A stretch of DNA of 64,000 nucleotides. Origin: Bacillota bacterium (GTDB lineage: Bacteria; Bacillota; Sulfobacillia; JAJZYS01; JAJYTV01). The stretch covers positions 1 through 64,000 of the forward strand of contig JAJZAT010000011.1 of NCBI GenBank assembly GCA_021799275.1, in the 5' to 3' direction. Positions 1,763 through 50,084 of this stretch are shown here, piece after piece. The position numbers were made by a program, and so were the translations under genes. The notes under the pieces are model-generated. The model made no database searches and was not told the origin of the DNA. It saw only the letters and a program-made list of their open reading frames with translations. Position 1 is the first letter of the stretch. The number at the start of each line of letters is the position of its first letter.

Positions 1763-3754
1763 TTGGAGTTTCAGCTCGTTTCGCCCTATCAGCCCGCCGG
1801 CGACCAGCCCAAGGCCATCGGGGCGCTGGTCGAGGGGCTGCAGGAAGGGCTTAAGGAACAGACGCTCGTCGGCGTGACGGGATCGGGCAAGACGGCCACG
1901 ATGGCCTGGACGATCCAGCAGATCGGGCGCCCGGCCTTGGTCCTCGCCCACAACAAGACCCTCGCCGCGCAGCTCTGCGGCGAGTTCCAGTCGTTCTTCC
2001 CGCATAACGCCGTCGAGTACTTCGTGTCGTACTACGACTACTATCAGCCCGAGGCCTATATCGCCACGAGCGACACCTACATTGAGAAGGACGCCACCAT
2101 CAACGACGAGATCGACAAGCTGCGCCACGCCGCCACGACCGCTCTCTTCGAGCGGCGCGACGTGATCATCGTCGCCTCCGTGAGCTGCATCTACGGCCTC
2201 GGTTCGCCCGAGGACTATCGGGACCTCTGCCTGTCGCTGCGCCAGGGTCAGGAGCGCGACCGGCGGGAGATCCTGCGCAAGCTTGTCGATATCCAGTACG
2301 ACCGCAACGACATGAATTTCACCCGCGGCACCTTCCGGGTGCGCGGCGAGGTGCTGGAGATCATCCCCGCCTCGAACGAGGAGCGGGCCATCCGCATCGA
2401 GTTCGATGGCGACACGATCGACCGCATCCTCGAGGTGGACGTGCTGACGGGCGAGGTGCTCGGTAGTCGCCACCACGTGGCGATCTACCCGGCCTCGCAC
2501 TATGTCACGTCGAGGGACAAGCGCCAGAAGGCCATCATCACGATCGAGCAGGAGCTCGAGGACCAGCTGAGGGCGTTCCGGGCCCAGGGCAAGCTGCTCG
2601 AGGCGCAGCGGCTCGAACAGCGGACGCGGCACGACATGGAGATGCTGCAGGAGATCGGCTTCTGCCCCGGCATCGAGAACTACTCGCGCCATCTCACCGG
2701 CCGGGAGGCGGGTCAGCCGCCCTACACCCTGCTCGACTTCTTCCCTGAGGACTTCGTCCTGTTCGTCGACGAATCGCACCAGTCGCTGCCGCAGGTGCGC
2801 GCCATGTACGCCGGGGACCGCTCGCGCAAGGAGTCCCTGGTGGACTACGGCTTCCGCCTGCCTTCGGCGTTCGACAACCGGCCGCTCAAGTTCGAGGAGT
2901 TCATGGCCCGTCTGAACCAGGTCATCTATGTCTCCGCGACGCCGAGCGAGTTCGAGCTCTCCCGCTCGTCGCGCGTCGTCGAGCAGATCGTGCGTCCGAC
3001 GGGGCTCCTCGACCCGCAGGTCGAGGTGCGGGGGACGAAGGGGCAGATCGACGACCTCCTTTACGAGATCCGCCAGCGCACGCAGAAGCATCAGCGGGTG
3101 CTGGTGACGACCTTGACCAAGAAGATGGCGGAGGAGCTCACCGACTACCTCAAGGAGGTGGGGGTGAAGGTACGCTACATGCACTCGGACGTCGAGACGA
3201 TCGAGCGCATGGCCATCATCCGGGACCTCAGGCTCGGCGTCTTCGATGTGCTGGTCGGCATCAACCTCCTGCGCGAGGGGATCGACCTGCCGGAGGTGTC
3301 GCTGGTCGCGATCCTGGACGCCGACAAGGAAGGCTACCTCCGCTCGACGACGGCGCTCGTGCAGACGATGGGTCGCGCCTCGCGCAACCTCGACGGCAAG
3401 GTGATCCTCTACGCCGACCGCGTGACCGACTCGATGGCCCGCGCCATCAACGAGACGGAACGCAGGCGCGGCCTGCAGGCCGCGTTCAACGAGGAACACG
3501 GCATCACGCCGCAGTCGATCGAGAAGGCCGTCCGCGACGTCATCGAGGCGACGAAGCCTGTGACCGTCGATGCGCTCAACAGCCGCACGGCGGAGAGCGT
3601 GCGCCCCAAGGACGTGCCAAAGCTCCTCGAGAAGCTGCGTCGCGAGATGCGCGAGGCCGCGAAAGGCCTTGAGTTCGAGCGCGCGGCGGTATTGCGCGAT
3701 CTCATCGCTGAGCTCGAGACAAAGCGTCAGGAGGCCCGTGCCGCGAAGCGCTGA
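1763..3754 (+). CDS. uvrB: Excinuclease ABC subunit UvrB
   Basis: UvrB is the helicase-like damage-verification subunit of nucleotide excision repair; it is loaded by UvrA and recruits UvrC. The 663 residues match the family length. Visible motifs are Walker A GVTGSGKT (about residue 38), NKTLAAQL, the beta-hairpin region [10 protein letters not shown], Walker B DESHQ (about 335), the superfamily 2 motif QTMGRASRN, and the C-terminal UVR domain (about 620-656) that binds UvrC. I chose the TTG at 1763 because GGGAGGGG precedes it at good spacing and the product then starts [16 protein letters not shown], as in other UvrB proteins. I see no LexA box upstream, unlike uvrA. Confidence 0.97.
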
Positions 3755-41709: not shown

Positions 41710-42624
41710 TCAGAGGTAGGACGAAAGCTGCTCCGCGTTGCGCTCGAGGTCCTCGCGGCGCCCCTTGAAGGCGCAGTAGGCGACATGGCTGAGGCCGATC
41801 TGGATAAGGCAGCAGCGCAGGCGCTGCTCCGCTAGAGTCGGCGGCCCGCCATGGGCCCGCCAATGCCCTTCCACGATCGCCGCGAGGTCGACGTCCTGCC
41901 ACGCCGGGAACCACGGCCACCAGTAGAGGAGCCAGGCGATGTCGTAGAGCGGATCGCCGTACATCGCGTTGCCCCAGTCGATCACCCCGCGAACTTGTGC
42001 CTTGTCTGCCAGCACATTGCCCAGGATGTCGCCGTGCACGATGTGGCGGAGATTTGGCAGATCCGGCGCAAGTCGCCCGAGCGTCTCAAGGCCCCGCTCG
42101 AACGTTCGGGCAAGTTCTGGCGCCATCACCTCGAGCCGCTCGCGCCAGCCCGCGAGCCGCCCGCCCTGATCGGCTACGGCGAGCAGGGCCTCCGCCCATG
42201 ACGCGTTCTCTCCGCTCCCGTCCGGGCCCCAGTGGCCGAAGCCCTGCGTACCGTAGATGTCAACGGCCCGCAGGGCTTCGAGCACCTCGAGCAGGTCCGG
42301 CAGGGCACTCTTGATGCCGCACGCGTCAAGGCCTTCCAGAGGTGCCCCTGGGATCCGCTCGGAGACGCAGTAGAAGCCGCGTGGCGCCTCCCCGACCTCA
42401 AATACCTCGGGGATGGGGAGGGCCGCGCAGGCGTAGGCGGCCATCACGCGGTCCTTCTCGAAGTCTTCCCGGTAAGGTCCGAAGCGGACGACGACGTCGC
42501 GCCCGTCGAGGCGCAACGCGTAGGCCCGGGACCACTCGCCCAGGCCGAGCGGCTCGAAGCCTTGGGCCCGTCCGTCGAACCGCGATTCCAAGAAGCGGCG
42601 CGCCTTGAGGTCGCGTTCATCCAT
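41710..42624 (-). CDS. APH-family phosphotransferase similar to hygromycin B kinase APH(4)
   Basis: The 304-residue protein has the kinase-like APH fold: an ATP-binding N-lobe (GEWSRAYALRLDGRDVVVRFG), ALPIPEVFEVGE, the catalytic HGDILGNVL (Brenner motif) and the metal-binding VIDWGNAMYGDPLYDIAWL. From memory, the spacing and wording of several blocks (ALPIPEV, the GFG-WGPDGSGE segment, the RH-VH-D loop, the IDW-AM-GD block followed by W-PW) resemble APH(4)-Ia. It may confer aminoglycoside resistance or phosphorylate a metabolite. The ATG at 42624 is favoured over 42633 by GAGGG nine bases upstream. Confidence 0.8.
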   Translation of the reverse strand: MDERDLKARRFLESRFDGRAQGFEPLGLGEWSRAYALRLDGRDVVVRFGPYREDFEKDRVMAAYACAALPIPEVFEVGEAPRGFYCVSERIPGAPLEGLDACGIKSALPDLLEVLEALRAVDIYGTQGFGHWGPDGSGENASWAEALLAVADQGGRLAGWRERLEVMAPELARTFERGLETLGRLAPDLPNLRHIVHGDILGNVLADKAQVRGVIDWGNAMYGDPLYDIAWLLYWWPWFPAWQDVDLAAIVEGHWRAHGGPPTLAEQRLRCCLIQIGLSHVAYCAFKGRREDLERNAEQLSSYL

Positions 42625-42677
42625 TGGCCGCATCCCTCGTCATGTCTGTCGGTGGACGATCGTGCGCAAGGAGCCGC

Positions 42678-43871
42678 CTAGTCCTCGTGCGCCAGCGGCA
42701 CGCCGCGGAACATCCCCCAGAGCACCAGGTCGTAGGCGGCCTTGAGCGCTCCCGCCAGGATGAACGGCAGGCCCATCGCCGCCACGGTCAGGGCGACGCC
42801 GGTGATCGCCGGCGAGACGGCCGACGCGGTGCCGCGCACGGCGGCGGTGACGCCCGCCGCCGCTCCGCGCTCCTCGGGTGCCACGAGGGCCATGGTGTAG
42901 GCCTGGCGCGTCGGCACGTCGAGCTGCGAGAGGAGACCCCTCAGCACGAGCAGCACGGCGGCCGCGGGAAAGCTCGGCGCGAAGGCCACGAGCAGCAGCA
43001 GGACGTTGGACGGCAGGTGCGTGAACACCATCGTATTGAGAAGTCCAAAGCGCTTCGCGAGCCACGGCGCCGCGAGCTGGGAGACGGCCATGGCGAGGTT
43101 CGTGGCGAAGAAGAGCACCCCCGCCGCGCCGGCCGCGATGCCGAAGCGCTCGTGCAGCCAGAGCACCGCGATGCCCTGCGCCACGAGCCCGCCCGCCAAG
43201 GCGTCGACGCCGAACAGGGTGGTCAGGCGCAGCACGATGCCCTGACTCTGCCGGAGCCGCCCGTGCGGTGGCTCGCCGGTCGCCTGGCGTTCCTCCTCCA
43301 CCGCGAGCGAGAGCCCACTGTAGAGCCAGACGAGCCCGAGGCCGATCGCCGCGTAGAGCCAGAACGCCGCGGCACTGTGCAGGCTTGGCGGCAGAGCGGC
43401 CGCGGCCAGTGCTCCGAGGGCCGCCGCCAGCGCGGCGGTCATGTTGTAGCGGGCGTAGAGCGCCATGCGGGTCTGGCCGTCGCCGAGGTGCGCCAGGGCC
43501 GCCTGCTCCAGCGGCAGCATCGCCGCGACATCCTTGCCTGTGGGGCTGAACGTGGCCAGCAGGCTCGCCAGAACCAGAACCGGCAGGGACGTGCTCGCCG
43601 CGAGCAGGACTCCACCCAGCACGATGCCAGCCGCGAGCAGCATGAGGCTGCGGCGCCGGCCAAGCGCGGCACCAATACGGCCCGCCACTGCGCTCAAGGC
43701 GCCGCTCGCCAGCAGCGCGACGGTGAAGAGTAGGCCGATCGTCACCGGCGGGAGGCCGTGCAGGCGCCAGTAGAGGGCCACCTCGACCGATACGAGACCG
43801 TAGCCGAAGCCGCGCAGGGCGGTCGCCGCGATGATCCGCGTGGCGTCGCCGCGTCTGGCAGGCTGCGCCAC
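42678..43871 (-). CDS. Major facilitator superfamily transporter next to a ChrB-like gene
   Basis: The 397-residue protein has about twelve helices (RIIAATALRGFGYGLVSVEVALYW, GRIGAALGRRRSLMLLAAG and so on) typical of MFS transporters. Similar MFS genes accompany ChrB-like genes in other bacteria, suggesting metal or oxyanion export, but the substrate cannot be read. Its GTG start overlaps the stop of the ChrB-like gene by one base, so both are translated together. A much longer open frame extends upstream across two genes, but it is a composition artefact. Confidence 0.83.
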   Translation of the reverse strand: MAQPARRGDATRIIAATALRGFGYGLVSVEVALYWRLHGLPPVTIGLLFTVALLASGALSAVAGRIGAALGRRRSLMLLAAGIVLGGVLLAASTSLPVLVLASLLATFSPTGKDVAAMLPLEQAALAHLGDGQTRMALYARYNMTAALAAALGALAAAALPPSLHSAAAFWLYAAIGLGLVWLYSGLSLAVEEERQATGEPPHGRLRQSQGIVLRLTTLFGVDALAGGLVAQGIAVLWLHERFGIAAGAAGVLFFATNLAMAVSQLAAPWLAKRFGLLNTMVFTHLPSNVLLLLVAFAPSFPAAAVLLVLRGLLSQLDVPTRQAYTMALVAPEERGAAAGVTAAVRGTASAVSPAITGVALTVAAMGLPFILAGALKAAYDLVLWGMFRGVPLAHED

Positions 43872-44305
43872 TAGGCTTGCACCTGCGCCTGGCACCAGCG
43901 GTAGAGGGCGTCGTAGAGCGGCGTCTCGAGCTGCAGCTTCTCGCGGTCGTCCTCGCCGTGGAGGAGGGCGAACCCGTGGGCCGCCGCATAGAGCCCGGCC
44001 GCTTCCGGGACGATGTCCCTGTCCGCGGACACGTCCGCGCCGTGCACAATCTTCGCGAGGCGGGCGAGCGCCGGATCCTTGAGTCCGTACTTGACGATGA
44101 TCGACTCGAAGCTGCAGCGCCCGTCGACGTGGCCAAGCTCCACGCCCTTGGCGTCGAACGGGATCGCCCCTTCCCGCTCGGCCACCGCCATGACCTCGTC
44201 GCCAGGGACGAAGAGGAATTCCGCCTCCTGGTCGACGAAGCGCCGGATCAGCCAGGGGCAGGCGATGCGATCGACGTTGGCGTTCTTGCGCGTGACCCAC
44301 TTCAT
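43871..44305 (-). CDS. ChrB C-terminal-domain protein (chromate-resistance-associated)
   Basis: The 144-residue protein matches the C-terminal domain of ChrB: MKWVTRKNANVDRIACPWLIRRFVD at the start (with conserved Arg, Asp and Cys), FVPGDEV, GVELGHVDGRCSFE and HGADV. ChrB regulates or supports chromate efflux operons in proteobacteria; stand-alone C-terminal versions of unknown biochemistry are common. The ATG at 44305 has GGGAGGT upstream. An MFS gene is coupled downstream and a terminator separates it from the selenoprotein-like gene upstream. Confidence 0.85.
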   Translation of the reverse strand: MKWVTRKNANVDRIACPWLIRRFVDQEAEFLFVPGDEVMAVAEREGAIPFDAKGVELGHVDGRCSFESIIVKYGLKDPALARLAKIVHGADVSADRDIVPEAAGLYAAAHGFALLHGEDDREKLQLETPLYDALYRWCQAQVQA

Positions 44306-44370
44306 GCACGCGACCTCCCAATCGGCTTCCTGCCGTCCACCGTAGCACCCGGAAGGGCGACGGAACAAGC

Positions 44371-44403
44371 AGACCGGCGCTCCTCCAGGTGGAGCGCCGG
44401 TCT
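44371..44403 (-). terminator. 13-bp terminator hairpin after the selenoprotein-like gene
   Basis: AGACCGGCGCTCC (44371-44383) pairs perfectly with GGAGCGCCGGTCT (44391-44403) around a 7-nt loop. On the minus strand it follows the redoxin stop by four bases and is followed by GCTTGTTCC, a weak T-rich tail. Confidence 0.7.
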
Positions 44404-44406
44404 ATA

Positions 44407-44844
44407 TCAGGGCAGGAGCTTCCCCACGATCGCGTCGAGGTCCCCGAGGTCGCGCATCGAGCGGCCGAGGTGACGTGCGGCCTCCTGGCCGTCCCGGCCG
44501 TAGGCGACGATCCCGGGCAGGCGCCCGAACGCGAGTAGGCGCCACTCCTGGCCGAAGCGGGAGAGCAGCTCGCCTGCGGGGTCCGGGATGCCGCGAAACG
44601 GGATGGCGTGCTCCCGGAAGTAGGCCTCGAACCTCTCAGGGCTGTCGGGCCCCACCGCCACGACCTCGACACCCTTGGCTCTCAGGTCCGGATAGCGCCG
44701 TGCGAGCTCGCCGAGCTCCTTGCGGCAGTAGGGTCAGGCAAAGCCGCGCAGGAGCACGACGATCAGCGGCGCGGCCTCCAGAAGGTCGCGGTCCGTGACG
44801 GCCGCCCCGAGATGGTCATGCATGGAGAACTCCGGCAGTGCCAT
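44407..44844 (-). CDS. Putative selenoprotein: thioredoxin-fold peroxiredoxin-like protein with Sec (TGA) in a UxxC motif
   Basis: The reading frame has 146 codons from ATG 44844 to a normal TGA at 44407-44409, interrupted once by TGA at 44736-44734 (codon 37). Around it the protein reads VVLLRGFA-U-PYCRKELGEL, and related AhpC/TSA-family proteins have a redox-active Cys where U stands, so the product would have a U37-P-Y-C40 centre. Codon use, frame and domain continue without change downstream (VEVVAVGPDSPERFEAYF, IPFRGIPDPAGELL, GRLPGIVAYGRDG), to a complete redoxin fold. GGAGGGGGAGG precedes the ATG. A SECIS-like hairpin follows the TGA. A pseudogene or a sequencing error (TGC to TGA) is the alternative. 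No Sec synthesis genes are in this window. It would reduce peroxides or other oxidants with thiol or flavin partners; an FMN reductase gene lies directly upstream. Confidence 0.75.
44697..44726 (-). promoter_or_regulatory. Candidate bacterial SECIS element in the redoxin mRNA
   Basis: Starting 7 bases after the in-frame TGA, GCCG (44726-44723) pairs with CGGC (44700-44697). An internal loop follows, then GAGCTC (44718-44713) pairs with GAGCTC (44709-44704) across the 3-nt apical loop GGC. The loop begins 21 bases after the TGA and with G, which fits the published bacterial SECIS consensus (apical loop about 16-37 bases after UGA, with G among its first bases). Confidence 0.6.
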
Positions 44845-44916
44845 GGCCTCCCCCTCCGCCACGGGATACCTGTGTGTCTCGGCTCTTCTCCGCCCGCCCA
44901 GCCGGGACCTGCGCCC

Positions 44917-45568: not shown

Positions 45569-45654
45569 CTAGGCCTTGCCGCGTCGACAGGAGGTTGGCC
45601 AACGGACAGGAAATTGATCCGTGGGGAGTGGACATTGGCGAGGAGGCCCTGCAC

Positions 45655-46911
45655 TTGCGTTTCAAGGTTGTCCATGCCGCGGATCTTCACCTCGACACGC
45701 CCTGCAGCGGGCTTGGCCGGACGGCGCCCGCCGTGGCGGAAGCCCTGCGCGACGCGTCTCTCCACGCCTTCGAGGGACTTGTGGACCTTTGCCTGCGCGA
45801 GCAGGCGGCGATCCTGCTGCTGGCGGGAGACGTTTATGACGGGCAGGAGCGCGGCATCCGTGCCGAGCGGCGGCTCAGGGCGGGCCTCGAGCGTCTGGGC
45901 GAGGCCGGTGTGCGCACCTTCGCCGTGCACGGCAACCATGATCCCCTTGCCCAGGGTGCGGGACCCGCGTGGGGAAGCGGCACCTACGTGTTCCCCGCCG
46001 ACGATGTGGTGGCGGTGCCTGTGGAAGTGGCGGGCAGGGTGGTCGCCACCGTGCACGGCATCTCCTTTCGCCAGCGCGAGGAGCACCGCAATCTGGCGCG
46101 CCTCTTCCGTCCGAACGGGGAGGGCCTGCAGATCGGCCTCCTGCACGCGAACGTCGGCGACCCGCAGCACGCCCCCTACGCGCCATGCAGCGTCGATGAC
46201 CTGCGGGAGGCGGGCATGGACTACTGGGCGCTCGGCCACGTGCATCGGCGCAGGCTCGTTCTCGAAGGCGGCCCCTGGGCTGCCTATTCCGGGGTCTTGC
46301 AGGGCAGGAGCCCGGCGGGTGGCGAGCTGGGACCCAAGGGAGCTCTGGTGCTGGATTGCGACGATCGGCTCGGTGTCCTCGAGCCACCCCGATTCGTGGC
46401 CCTCGACCGGATCCGCTTCGAGACGGTCCAGGTGGACCTCTCGGGAGCCATGGACCTGCAGGAGGCGATCGACAGGATCGAGTCGGCCGGCCGTGGCGCC
46501 GCCCAAACGGCGGAGGGACGAGCCCTGATCCTGAGCGCCACGCTGGGCGGGGATTTCGGACCGGATGCGGAGTTCCAGCTGCGCCAGGGCGAGATCCTGC
46601 AATCCCTGCAGGAAGCGGGCCTCGCGCAGGACCCCTTCGTTTGGTGGGACGCGCTCGAGCTGCGCACGCGGCCTCCCATCCGCCGCGACGAGATCCGCGT
46701 CGGCGGCGATCTCGCGGCGGAGGTGCTGGCAGAGGCGGACCGCCTGCGCGCCTCCCCCGAGGAGCTCGGTGGTCTTCTCGCTGCACTTGAGCAGGAACTC
46801 ACGCGCTTTCCGGTGCGCGACGCGCTGCGGATGGATATCCCCCCCGCTGGACTCCTGTCCGAGGCCGAGGAGATCTGCCTCAGGCTCCTCACAGGAGGTG
46901 ACGGGCGGTGA
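45655..46911 (+). CDS. YhaO/SbcD-type metallophosphoesterase (DNA repair exonuclease)
   Basis: The 418-residue protein has the Mre11/SbcD phosphoesterase motifs DLHLD (near residue 10), GDVYD (about 62), GNHD (about 101), HANVGD (about 163) and GHVHRR (about 198), which bind two metal ions, then a C-terminal capping domain. With its partner it probably cleaves DNA ends or hairpins. TTG 45655 is chosen because AGGAGG lies eight bases upstream and the product then starts MRFKVVHAADLH. The ATPase partner begins at a GTG overlapping its stop. Confidence 0.9.
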   Translation: MRFKVVHAADLHLDTPCSGLGRTAPAVAEALRDASLHAFEGLVDLCLREQAAILLLAGDVYDGQERGIRAERRLRAGLERLGEAGVRTFAVHGNHDPLAQGAGPAWGSGTYVFPADDVVAVPVEVAGRVVATVHGISFRQREEHRNLARLFRPNGEGLQIGLLHANVGDPQHAPYAPCSVDDLREAGMDYWALGHVHRRRLVLEGGPWAAYSGVLQGRSPAGGELGPKGALVLDCDDRLGVLEPPRFVALDRIRFETVQVDLSGAMDLQEAIDRIESAGRGAAQTAEGRALILSATLGGDFGPDAEFQLRQGEILQSLQEAGLAQDPFVWWDALELRTRPPIRRDEIRVGGDLAAEVLAEADRLRASPEELGGLLAALEQELTRFPVRDALRMDIPPAGLLSEAEEICLRLLTGGDGR

Positions 46912-49900
46912 TCCTGCGCGGCTGGGAGATCGAGGGCTTCGGCGTCTTCCGCGGCATGGCGCTGTCGGACGTCCCCGAGGGTCTGACGTTGGTGCTGGGG
47001 CCGAACGAGGCGGGGAAGTCCACGCTGCTCGGCTTTCTGCGCTTCATGCTGTTCGGCTTTCCGCGCGGGGAGCAGCAGAAGTACCCGCCGCTCCAGGGCG
47101 GGCGCCACGGGGGACGGCTCACGTTCGAGGACGACGAAGGGCTCTGGACCCTCGAGCGCTTGCAGGGCCAGCCGCTGCGTCTCTGGGCGCCGGATGGACG
47201 CCAGCTTGGCGAGGACGGACTGCGGAGCCGGCTTGGCGGCCTCGATGCGGACATGTTCCGCAGCGTTTTCGCCTTCAGCCTCTACGAACTGACGGACCTC
47301 GGGACGCTCGACCGCGAAGAGGTGCGCGACCGCCTGTACTCCGCGGGCATCACCGGCGCCGGCCGCAGTGCCGCCGGGGTGCTCGCCCAATTGCGCAAGG
47401 GCCTCGAGGCCTACCTGCGCCCGCGGTCCAAGGAAGGCCAGATCAACAAGCTTAGCGATGCTCTGGTCACCGCACGGCGGGAACTCGCCGCGGCGACGGC
47501 CCTGGCCGGGCGCTTCGGCGAGATCGAGGCGCAGCTGGCCGCGGCCGACGAAACGGTGCGGGACCAGGGCGAAGAGGCGCGTCGCCTCGAGCAGCAGCGC
47601 CGCCACCTCGAGCGCCTCGAGGGACTCTATGTGCCCTGGAACCGCCTGCAGAGGCTGGAGCAGGAACTGGCGCGGGAGGGTGAACCCCTGCGTCTCGACC
47701 GGGCGCTGGTTGAGAGGATCGAGGGCGCCTCGGACCCCCTCACGGAGTGTGCGAAGGCCACGGCCGCCGAGCAGGCCGTCTGCCGGGATCTGGAGGAGCG
47801 GATCGCCCAAGAGGGCCGGCTCGTCGACCGGCGCATTCTGGAGGTGGCGGATCCCCTGCAGGCTGCGTTGCATGAGCTCGCGCTCCAGCGCGACCGCTTG
47901 GGCCGCAGCGAGCGCCTCGGCCGGGACATCGCGGGGCAGGAGGGCCGGATCGCGCAGCTGGCCAGGGAGCTCGGCGTCGCCCCGACGGCCGACCTGCCGC
48001 CGGTCGAGCAGAGCCAGGTGCGGGCCGGCGAGGAACTGGTCGAGCGGCTGCGCGATCTTGGTCAGGCTCGCGTCCGGCGCGAGGAAGAGGAAGAGGCCGC
48101 CCGCGGGACGCTAGCGAAGGCGGAGAGTGACGCCCGGGCCGCGGCGGAGCAGGCGGGGCGGTACGAGGAAGTGCCGGATGCCGAAGCCTACCATGCGCGG
48201 GATGCCCTCCTAACCCGTCACAAGGAAGCCATCGAAAATCTCGCGCGGCGACGCGGGCAGCTGCTCGCGCCGAACCTGCTCGCCATCGCGTTCGTCGTGG
48301 TCGGGCTTATCGCCCTCGCCTACGGCCAGTGGCCCTTCGCGGCCTTGGCGCCGATCGGCCTGATCGCCTTCGCCGTCCTCCTGCTCGGCCGCCCTGGTCA
48401 GGAGCTCAGGCGTCTCGCGGCGGAGGTGCGCGATTCCCAGGAGGCCTTGGGCCTCGGACAGCCGCTTCACCTCTCCGCCGCCGTCAAGGAGCTCTCAGAC
48501 CTGCACGCGCAATTCGGACGCGTGATGGCCGCGGGCACGGCCCGCGAGCGCCTGCGCGCCGCGGACGAGCAGCGGCAGGCCACCGGCCGCCTGCTTGCGG
48601 AGTGCGGCAGGCGCCGCGAGCAGGCCATCGCCGCGGAGCAGGAGGGGCTCTCGGCGCTCGCGGCCTTCAAGGCGTCCATGGCTGTGCCGCTCGACGTGCC
48701 GCCGCAACACCTTCCGTCCCACCTGCGCACGGTGCAGGCTCTCGGGGCGGCGCAAAGGGAGCTCGCAACCCTGGAGACGCAGCGGGCGGACGAGGAACGT
48801 GCGATCGAGGCATGGCAGCGGCAGGTCACCGAGATCTTCCTGCGATTGGGCCAGGCGATGCCCGATGCCCGGGAGGCGGTGCCCGAGGCGATCGCCGCTC
48901 TCGAGGTGCCCCTGCAGGCTGCCCGGCGTGGCGAGACCGCCCTCAGGCTGCTTGAGGAGCAGCGGCGCGTGGCCTTGGAGCAGGCGGAACTCCTGGCGCA
49001 GGCGGAAGCCGCGGCGGCGGATGCCCTCGCCGAGAGCCTGCGGGAGGCGGGCCTCGAGGACGTCGGCGCGTTCGAGCGGTGGCGCGAGGCCAGCGGGGCG
49101 TACGAGCAGAAGCTGCATGAGCGCGACCTCGCGGCGGCCGCCTTCCGCGACCAGGTTGGGGCATCGGCGGACGCGTTCGTCGAGGAACTGGCAGAGGGCG
49201 GCCCCGAGCTCTGGCAGACCGAGCGCAGCCGGATCGCGGAGAGACTCGACGAACTCAATCGCCAGCGGGACCTCGCGCTGCGTCAGAGCCAGGACCTCCT
49301 CCGGCTCAGAAGCGAGATCGCCGAGTCTTCGGACGTGCCGGTCCTCGCGGCGCGCTGCCTCGAACTCGAGGAGGAGCTCCGACGCGCGGCCGAGGCCTGG
49401 CGCGCCCAGGCCCTCGCGGGCCGGCTCCTCGAGCGCACCCTCGAGACCTATGTGCGCAGCCGCCAGCCGGAGGTGCTGCGGATCGCGTCGCAGGCCCTGC
49501 GCGGCATCACCGCCGAGCGCTACGTCGAGGTGCGGCAGCGCAGCGACGGCCAGGGGCTCCTCGCCGTCGGGCCCTCGGGCGCTGTGAAGGAGCCGCACGA
49601 ACTCAGCCGCGGCACCCAGGAACAGATGTATCTCGCCCTCCGGCTGGGACTCGCGGCTTCCTACGGAGAGCGCGTCGCGGCGCTGCCGCTCGTGCTCGAC
49701 GACATCGCGGTTAACTTCGACCCTGCTCGCCAGGCGAAGCTTCTCGAGGTGCTCGGACGGTTCGCCGCGGAACCTCGCCGGCAGGCGCTCTTCTTCACCT
49801 GCCACCCGTCGCTCGCGCAATTGGCCGCAGGCGCTGTGCCACGGCTGCGGGTGATCGAGCTCTCGGCCCAGGAGAGCCAGGCGGAGGTGGCGGCCGCGAG

Positions 49901-50084
49901 GGATGGACCGGTATCGGAGCGCATCGTCGGTCTCTTGCAACCGGGCCCATTGACGCTCAAGGAGATCGCGAAGAGCCTGGGAACCAAGGAGAACGAGACC
50001 CGCGCAGCGCTGCAGGCACTGGTCGCGGAGGGCCGCGTAGCCGCGATGGGGAACGGACGCGGCCGGCGCTACGGCATCGCCTGA
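46908..50084 (+). CDS. YhaN-like SMC/Rad50-type ATPase with a fused C-terminal winged-helix-like domain
   Basis: The 1058-residue protein begins with Walker A GPNEAGKST (about residue 32) and has long coiled coils interrupted by a membrane-like hairpin (about 450-490: LLAIAFVVVGLIALAYG and ALAPIGLIAFAVLLLG), as in B. subtilis YhaN. The C-terminal half of the head has signature SRGTQEQMYLALRLGL (about 903) and Walker B LPLVLDDIAVNFD (about 926). After the head, about 60 extra residues (1000-1058) look like a winged helix: ERIVGLLQPGPLTLKEIAKS, NETRAALQALVAEGRV and a GNGRGRRYGI wing. It forms a complex with the upstream nuclease. Confidence 0.87.
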   Translation: MILRGWEIEGFGVFRGMALSDVPEGLTLVLGPNEAGKSTLLGFLRFMLFGFPRGEQQKYPPLQGGRHGGRLTFEDDEGLWTLERLQGQPLRLWAPDGRQLGEDGLRSRLGGLDADMFRSVFAFSLYELTDLGTLDREEVRDRLYSAGITGAGRSAAGVLAQLRKGLEAYLRPRSKEGQINKLSDALVTARRELAAATALAGRFGEIEAQLAAADETVRDQGEEARRLEQQRRHLERLEGLYVPWNRLQRLEQELAREGEPLRLDRALVERIEGASDPLTECAKATAAEQAVCRDLEERIAQEGRLVDRRILEVADPLQAALHELALQRDRLGRSERLGRDIAGQEGRIAQLARELGVAPTADLPPVEQSQVRAGEELVERLRDLGQARVRREEEEEAARGTLAKAESDARAAAEQAGRYEEVPDAEAYHARDALLTRHKEAIENLARRRGQLLAPNLLAIAFVVVGLIALAYGQWPFAALAPIGLIAFAVLLLGRPGQELRRLAAEVRDSQEALGLGQPLHLSAAVKELSDLHAQFGRVMAAGTARERLRAADEQRQATGRLLAECGRRREQAIAAEQEGLSALAAFKASMAVPLDVPPQHLPSHLRTVQALGAAQRELATLETQRADEERAIEAWQRQVTEIFLRLGQAMPDAREAVPEAIAALEVPLQAARRGETALRLLEEQRRVALEQAELLAQAEAAAADALAESLREAGLEDVGAFERWREASGAYEQKLHERDLAAAAFRDQVGASADAFVEELAEGGPELWQTERSRIAERLDELNRQRDLALRQSQDLLRLRSEIAESSDVPVLAARCLELEEELRRAAEAWRAQALAGRLLERTLETYVRSRQPEVLRIASQALRGITAERYVEVRQRSDGQGLLAVGPSGAVKEPHELSRGTQEQMYLALRLGLAASYGERVAALPLVLDDIAVNFDPARQAKLLEVLGRFAAEPRRQALFFTCHPSLAQLAAGAVPRLRVIELSAQESQAEVAAARDGPVSERIVGLLQPGPLTLKEIAKSLGTKENETRAALQALVAEGRVAAMGNGRGRRYGIA

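Follow-up and report, generated by a model that had tools for sequence, protein, structure and literature searches.

The window, a 64,000-nucleotide stretch of DNA from a Bacillota genome, very probably encodes a 145-residue selenoprotein in which UGA codon 37 specifies selenocysteine (Sec), predicted to be a UxxC thiol:disulfide oxidoreductase or an accessory peroxidase. The selenocysteine reading of the TGA is strongly supported by genomic and comparative RNA evidence. The gene lies on the minus strand (44407..44844), with an ATG at 44844 and a terminal stop TGA at 44407-44409 (codon 146). The internal TGA (44734..44736, minus strand) occurs in the context VVLLRGFA-U-PYCRKELGELARRYP, and translation from 44844 to 44407 with TGA as U gives MALPEFSM...VVLLRGFAUPYCRKELGELARRYP...IVGKLLP.

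A sequence-only reading of this DNA had proposed a continuous frame with a single internal TGA at codon 37, a good ribosome binding site, and coding that resumes past the TGA to a second stop. The observation is confirmed and belongs to the minus strand, which that reading had left unstated. The frame comprises 145 codons plus the terminal TGA, and the ATG is directly preceded by a purine-rich stretch, GGAGGGGGAGG (44846..44856, minus strand, approximate ends), a putative Shine-Dalgarno region. A codon-usage scan gave coding-like values on both sides of the TGA (0.32 and 0.26, versus 0.14-0.31 in reference genes) and ranked it highest among in-frame TGAs of the window. Given this score and the dozens of homologues that share the TGA codon position, the TGA is not a chance occurrence. 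The scan returned six weaker candidates in the window, at least two of which are plain gene ends; the TGAs at 3752 and 50082 were rejected as read-through sites, as they are ordinary stops that close long ORFs. The expectation that automatic annotation would reduce the gene to an 84-residue C-terminal fragment was also borne out: the table 11 ORF list contains at this locus solely a GTG-started ORF of 84 aa (44407-44661).

Upstream, 72 nt away on the same strand, is a gene for an NADPH-dependent FMN reductase family protein (PF03358; 44917..45504, minus strand), and this pair is kept in the readable genomes of the same family-level group. Because of the conserved adjacency, the reductase is a candidate partner and may be an electron source. 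Downstream is a gene for a ChrB C-terminal domain protein (43871..44302, minus strand), a neighbor conserved within the genus only. A strong 14-bp hairpin directly 3' of the stop (44370..44404, minus strand) is a possible terminator without a clear U-run; a promoter/terminator consensus scan of the locus yielded nothing useful and did not pick up this hairpin. Elsewhere in the window, adjacent and ordinary genes resemble an SbcD-type nuclease (45595-46911) and an SbcC/SMC-type ATPase (46908-50084). An aminoglycoside-phosphotransferase-like kinase (APH, PF01636) is encoded at 41710-42633. Its top NCBIfam similarity, to APH(4)-Ia, is far under the cut-off, so we make no resistance claim.

The protein matches PF00578 (59.4 bits versus a gathering score of 26, E=4.5e-16) and Redoxin PF08534 (E=4e-10). 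The AlphaFold model (pLDDT 94, pTM 0.89) has a thioredoxin fold, in which residue 37 immediately precedes the active-site helix (38-56) and a strand (27-31) lies on the other side of the TGA. The UxxC motif thus lies where the active-site helix begins. The nearest solved folds found by Foldseek are ResA and Bcp/AhpE (TM 0.86-0.88 for the latter). In an alignment of 42 homologues, U/C37, C40, P66, Q99, P110, G119, and D132 are invariant. Profile alignment pairs C40 with the Cys of 2cx3, a Bcp-type protein, and U37 accordingly takes the Thr position of the peroxiredoxin (Prx) TxxC motif. From these features we infer a thioredoxin-like UxxC redox center on a Prx-like body.

We propose that in this thioredoxin/peroxiredoxin-fold enzyme Sec37, at the N-terminal start of the active-site helix, would attack a disulfide or a peroxide as a selenolate. 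Cys40 (44725..44727, minus strand), one turn on, would act as the resolving partner, converting the selenenyl intermediate to an Se-S bond, which could then be re-reduced by thioredoxin, by some other thiol, or by a flavin donor. The overall role would be that of a fast cytosolic thiol:disulfide oxidoreductase or accessory peroxidase.

Whether the Sec protein instead acts mainly as a true, peroxide-specific peroxiredoxin is the alternative that deserves most consideration. Sec is efficient with peroxides, and both the PF00578 match and the fold similarity to Bcp/AhpE are compatible with such a role. Against these stand the UxxC motif in place of the Prx TxxC, the alignment of the invariant P110 with the LP motif of ResA, as in thioredoxin-like reductases, and a profile that matches ResA as well as Bcp. 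The classical PxxxTxxC/U motif is absent: LRGFAUPYC has Sec at the Thr position and lacks the upstream Pro. Because Sec is at the Thr position and Cys40 is at the position of the peroxidatic Cys, motif and fold make a thiol:disulfide oxidoreductase or accessory peroxidase more likely, and we consider the classical peroxiredoxin role rather unlikely. This also divides two earlier claims. The claim that the TGA takes the place of a redox Cys of relatives is correct relative to CxxC-type Prx-like proteins and ResA, but not relative to true peroxiredoxins; and in the description "Sec-containing peroxiredoxin-like enzyme", the support covers Sec and Prx-like and does not extend to a strict peroxiredoxin.

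As the gene combines a PF00578 domain with UxxC, it is, by sequence, a new member of the known Prx-like UxxC selenoproteins. PF00578 UxxC selenoproteins are an established predicted family of Prx-like thiol:disulfide oxidoreductases (PMC13188914); UXXC Prx-like proteins were present already in PMC1088965, and Prx-like 1 and Prx-like 3 in the GOS selenoproteome (PMC2398784). Compared by published description, the window gene shares with the Prx-like UxxC/UxxU selenoproteins of Zhang and Gladyshev the AhpC-TSA domain, the UxxC motif with Sec first, a bacterial SECIS (bSECIS) directly downstream, and a Sec-trait genome. Sec peroxiredoxins (TxxU, PF00578) belong to the same fold family but carry Sec at the last motif position rather than the first; separate TxxU proteins are present in the same genome as the UxxC gene. 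ResA/TlpA proteins share the CxxC-type motif and the LP-aligned proline and are the closest solved structures by Foldseek E-value, but the window protein has Sec for Cys, no apparent signal or anchor segment, and an identity to them of about 20%. The best curated NCBIfam model is NF040769 (SelL-related redox protein), which is matched by all 42 members. The window protein differs from SelL in having UxxC rather than UxxU, and its score (49.4 bits) is below the cut-off of 120, which leaves it without a name under any curated NCBIfam model; the subfamily as a whole likewise falls short of the NCBIfam cut-offs.

UGA codon 37 is predicted to be translated as Sec with the help of SelB, tRNA-Sec(UCA), and a SECIS hairpin located 15-30 nt further 3'. 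The candidate hairpin, of bacterial type (44704..44718, minus strand; GAGCUC-GGC-GAGCUC), begins 15 nt past the UGA and has 6 bp, a 3-nt loop (GGC), and a UGA-to-loop distance of 21 nt. These values fall within published bSECIS constraints: an apical loop of 3-9 nt with G in the first two positions, a stem of 4-16 bp, and 16-37 nt from the UGA (PMC13188914). By folding energy alone the window hairpin does not stand out from shuffled sequence (z=0.46), and we therefore relied on comparative evidence. An alignment of four close sequences showed no covariation, so homologues were sampled more widely. A fitting hairpin was found in 40 of the 41 TGA homologues examined, placed 20-21 nt from the UGA in the clade of the window gene and at 25 nt in a second clade.

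Among the 28 distinct sequences of the window gene's clade, standard pairs fill 97% of pair cells. GC, GU, and CG are all seen at pair 16-30, and one homologue (L074) shows a compensated change to UA at pair 18-28. Covariation in this clade scores 0.189; shuffles give 0.066, and slid placements no more than 0.096, although the sequences are related, and shuffle counts are thus not independent probabilities. The second clade (10 sequences) is 98% paired, with compensatory changes at two pairs. When the same peptides were recoded by synonymous-codon resampling, an equally good hairpin arose in a median of 5.4% and 3.7% of trials.

This covarying hairpin 3' of the TGA argues against two separate proteins, namely a 36-residue N-terminal peptide that truly terminates at the TGA and an 84-residue C-terminal protein with a start of its own. 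The GTG-started ORF of table 11 and the RefSeq annotation of an N-terminal piece in Thermomicrobium roseum could be read in that way. However, the fold needs both halves, since the TGA separates strand 27-31 from helix 38-56, and the invariant Cys40 as well as P38 fall between the TGA and the GTG. We regard two proteins as very improbable and retain a single Sec-containing product.

Homologues were sought in two sets of genomes. In a sample of the phylum, a homologue whose frame contains a TGA is present in 12 of 398 genomes, the source genome among them, and all 12 TGAs align with codon 37. In a sample of the class, 33 of 154 genomes have a match of about 89 bits or more; 32 of these matches have exactly one TGA and one (L083, in G461) has Cys (TGC) at the position. 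The two sets give 42 distinct TGA-bearing genomes (L050 and L051 are the same proteins as those of G444 and G442 and were counted once). Among the 43 sampled genomes with a core-family match, the codon-37 position is therefore Sec in 42 and Cys in one, and no other residue was seen there. The best fitting hairpin of the Cys homologue is weaker and at a different place. Paralogous Prx-like proteins have Cys at this position (WCPYC), and weaker relatives have CxxC-like motifs or UxxU. Two distant relatives from the same class, L087 (G432) and L088 (G453), have two TGAs each, giving SelL-like UxxU motifs (WUGPU and WUPPU). The nearest named contigs are metagenome-assembled genomes labeled "Bacillota bacterium", with protein identities of 90% and 75%.

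A homologue (LLRGLRUPYCRRHLAQLRQ) is also present on the megaplasmid of T. roseum DSM 5159, a cultured bacterium with a finished genome. Its hairpin has 7 bp and an AGUU loop. RefSeq ends this homologue at the TGA: the 42-aa "hypothetical protein" WP_012643006.1 (NC_011961.1 545266-545394; L097:574-702) corresponds to the N-terminal part of this selenoprotein, truncated at its Sec codon, so the anticipated annotation miss recurs there. A selB search confined to the T. roseum megaplasmid found none.

The source assembly consists of 61 contigs, and one TGC-to-TGA change would be enough to mimic a Sec codon, which lends some surface plausibility to a sequencing or assembly error (a true TGC or TGT) or a pseudogene. 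Recurrence of the TGA in 42 genomes of many genera and in the finished genome of a cultured isolate already refutes this explanation and excludes the misread codon that the sequence-only reading had named as a refutation. Moreover, frames are otherwise intact, with no further internal stop in nearly all TGA homologues, and codon usage flanking the TGA is coding-like. We give error or decay practically no credence, and the selenocysteine reading stands.

The source genome (G000; 3.14 Mb, 97.5% complete) encodes the machinery that this reading calls for, as the earlier reading had proposed to check; with it, none of the three conditions named there as refuting the claim was borne out. We identified a tRNA-Sec (68.7 bits; tRNA-SeC with anticodon TCA in the ARAGORN reading), selB above its curated cut-off, and selA (E=1.8e-130) on contig C45 with selD directly after it. 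A second selD brings the total to two, and both selD genes have their own in-frame TGA (GUGCK; L025 on C59 and L026 on C45). It seems unusual for a single genome to have two SelD of the Sec type. The selenoproteome of this genome was only sampled. Further likely selenoproteins are an AhpC-type Prx (FTFVU; L001, G000:C35, ~89 kb), a Bcp-like Prx (FTGGU; L003, G000:C1, ~70 kb), and a thioredoxin-like protein (GUINC; L007, G000:C52, ~97 kb). A TusA-family protein (L095, G000:C31:61148-61354) with an in-frame TGA (DLRGQCUL) at the TusA CP site is a possible selenoprotein. The tRNA-Sec, selA, selB, and selD, together with other redox genes with in-frame TGAs, make Sec use in this organism well grounded. 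Decoding of the UGA as Cys or Trp, whether through reassignment or through near-cognate suppression, would suit a position occupied by a redox Cys in relatives but has next to no chance of being correct, as TGA terminates this gene and other window genes, the genome has dedicated Sec machinery, and the SECIS-like element is conserved.

More broadly, selB was detected above its cut-off in 38 of 42 carriers of the homologue (12/12 in the first set and 26/30 in the second) versus 25 of 41 non-carriers (Fisher p=0.002, uncorrected for phylogeny, the non-carriers being the listed ones and a non-random sample). The four carriers without a detected selB (G441, G468, G469, and G513) are all fragmented assemblies of 210-360 contigs.

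We tentatively suggest, with considerable doubt, that the core homologues form a distinct, uncurated, and practically Sec-obligate Prx-like subfamily of Bacillota and Thermomicrobiota, in which the Cys form almost never occurs and which is paired with the FMN reductase in one family-level group. Its motif runs from RG[FL]xUP[YFH]C[RQ]... to a closing GRxPA.... In the sampled genomes the subfamily appears to be almost exclusively Sec-containing. Cys versions dominate most Sec redox families, which makes a nearly exclusive Sec subfamily unusual. In GOS Prx-like 1, Cys members far outnumber Sec members (2,740 versus 225; PMC2398784), the reverse of the ratio in the core subfamily here. The locus provides a well-supported selenoprotein gene missed by automatic annotation, even in a finished reference genome. 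The apparent near-exclusive use of Sec makes the subfamily a usable marker of Sec utilization and a case in which to ask what keeps Cys from replacing Sec.
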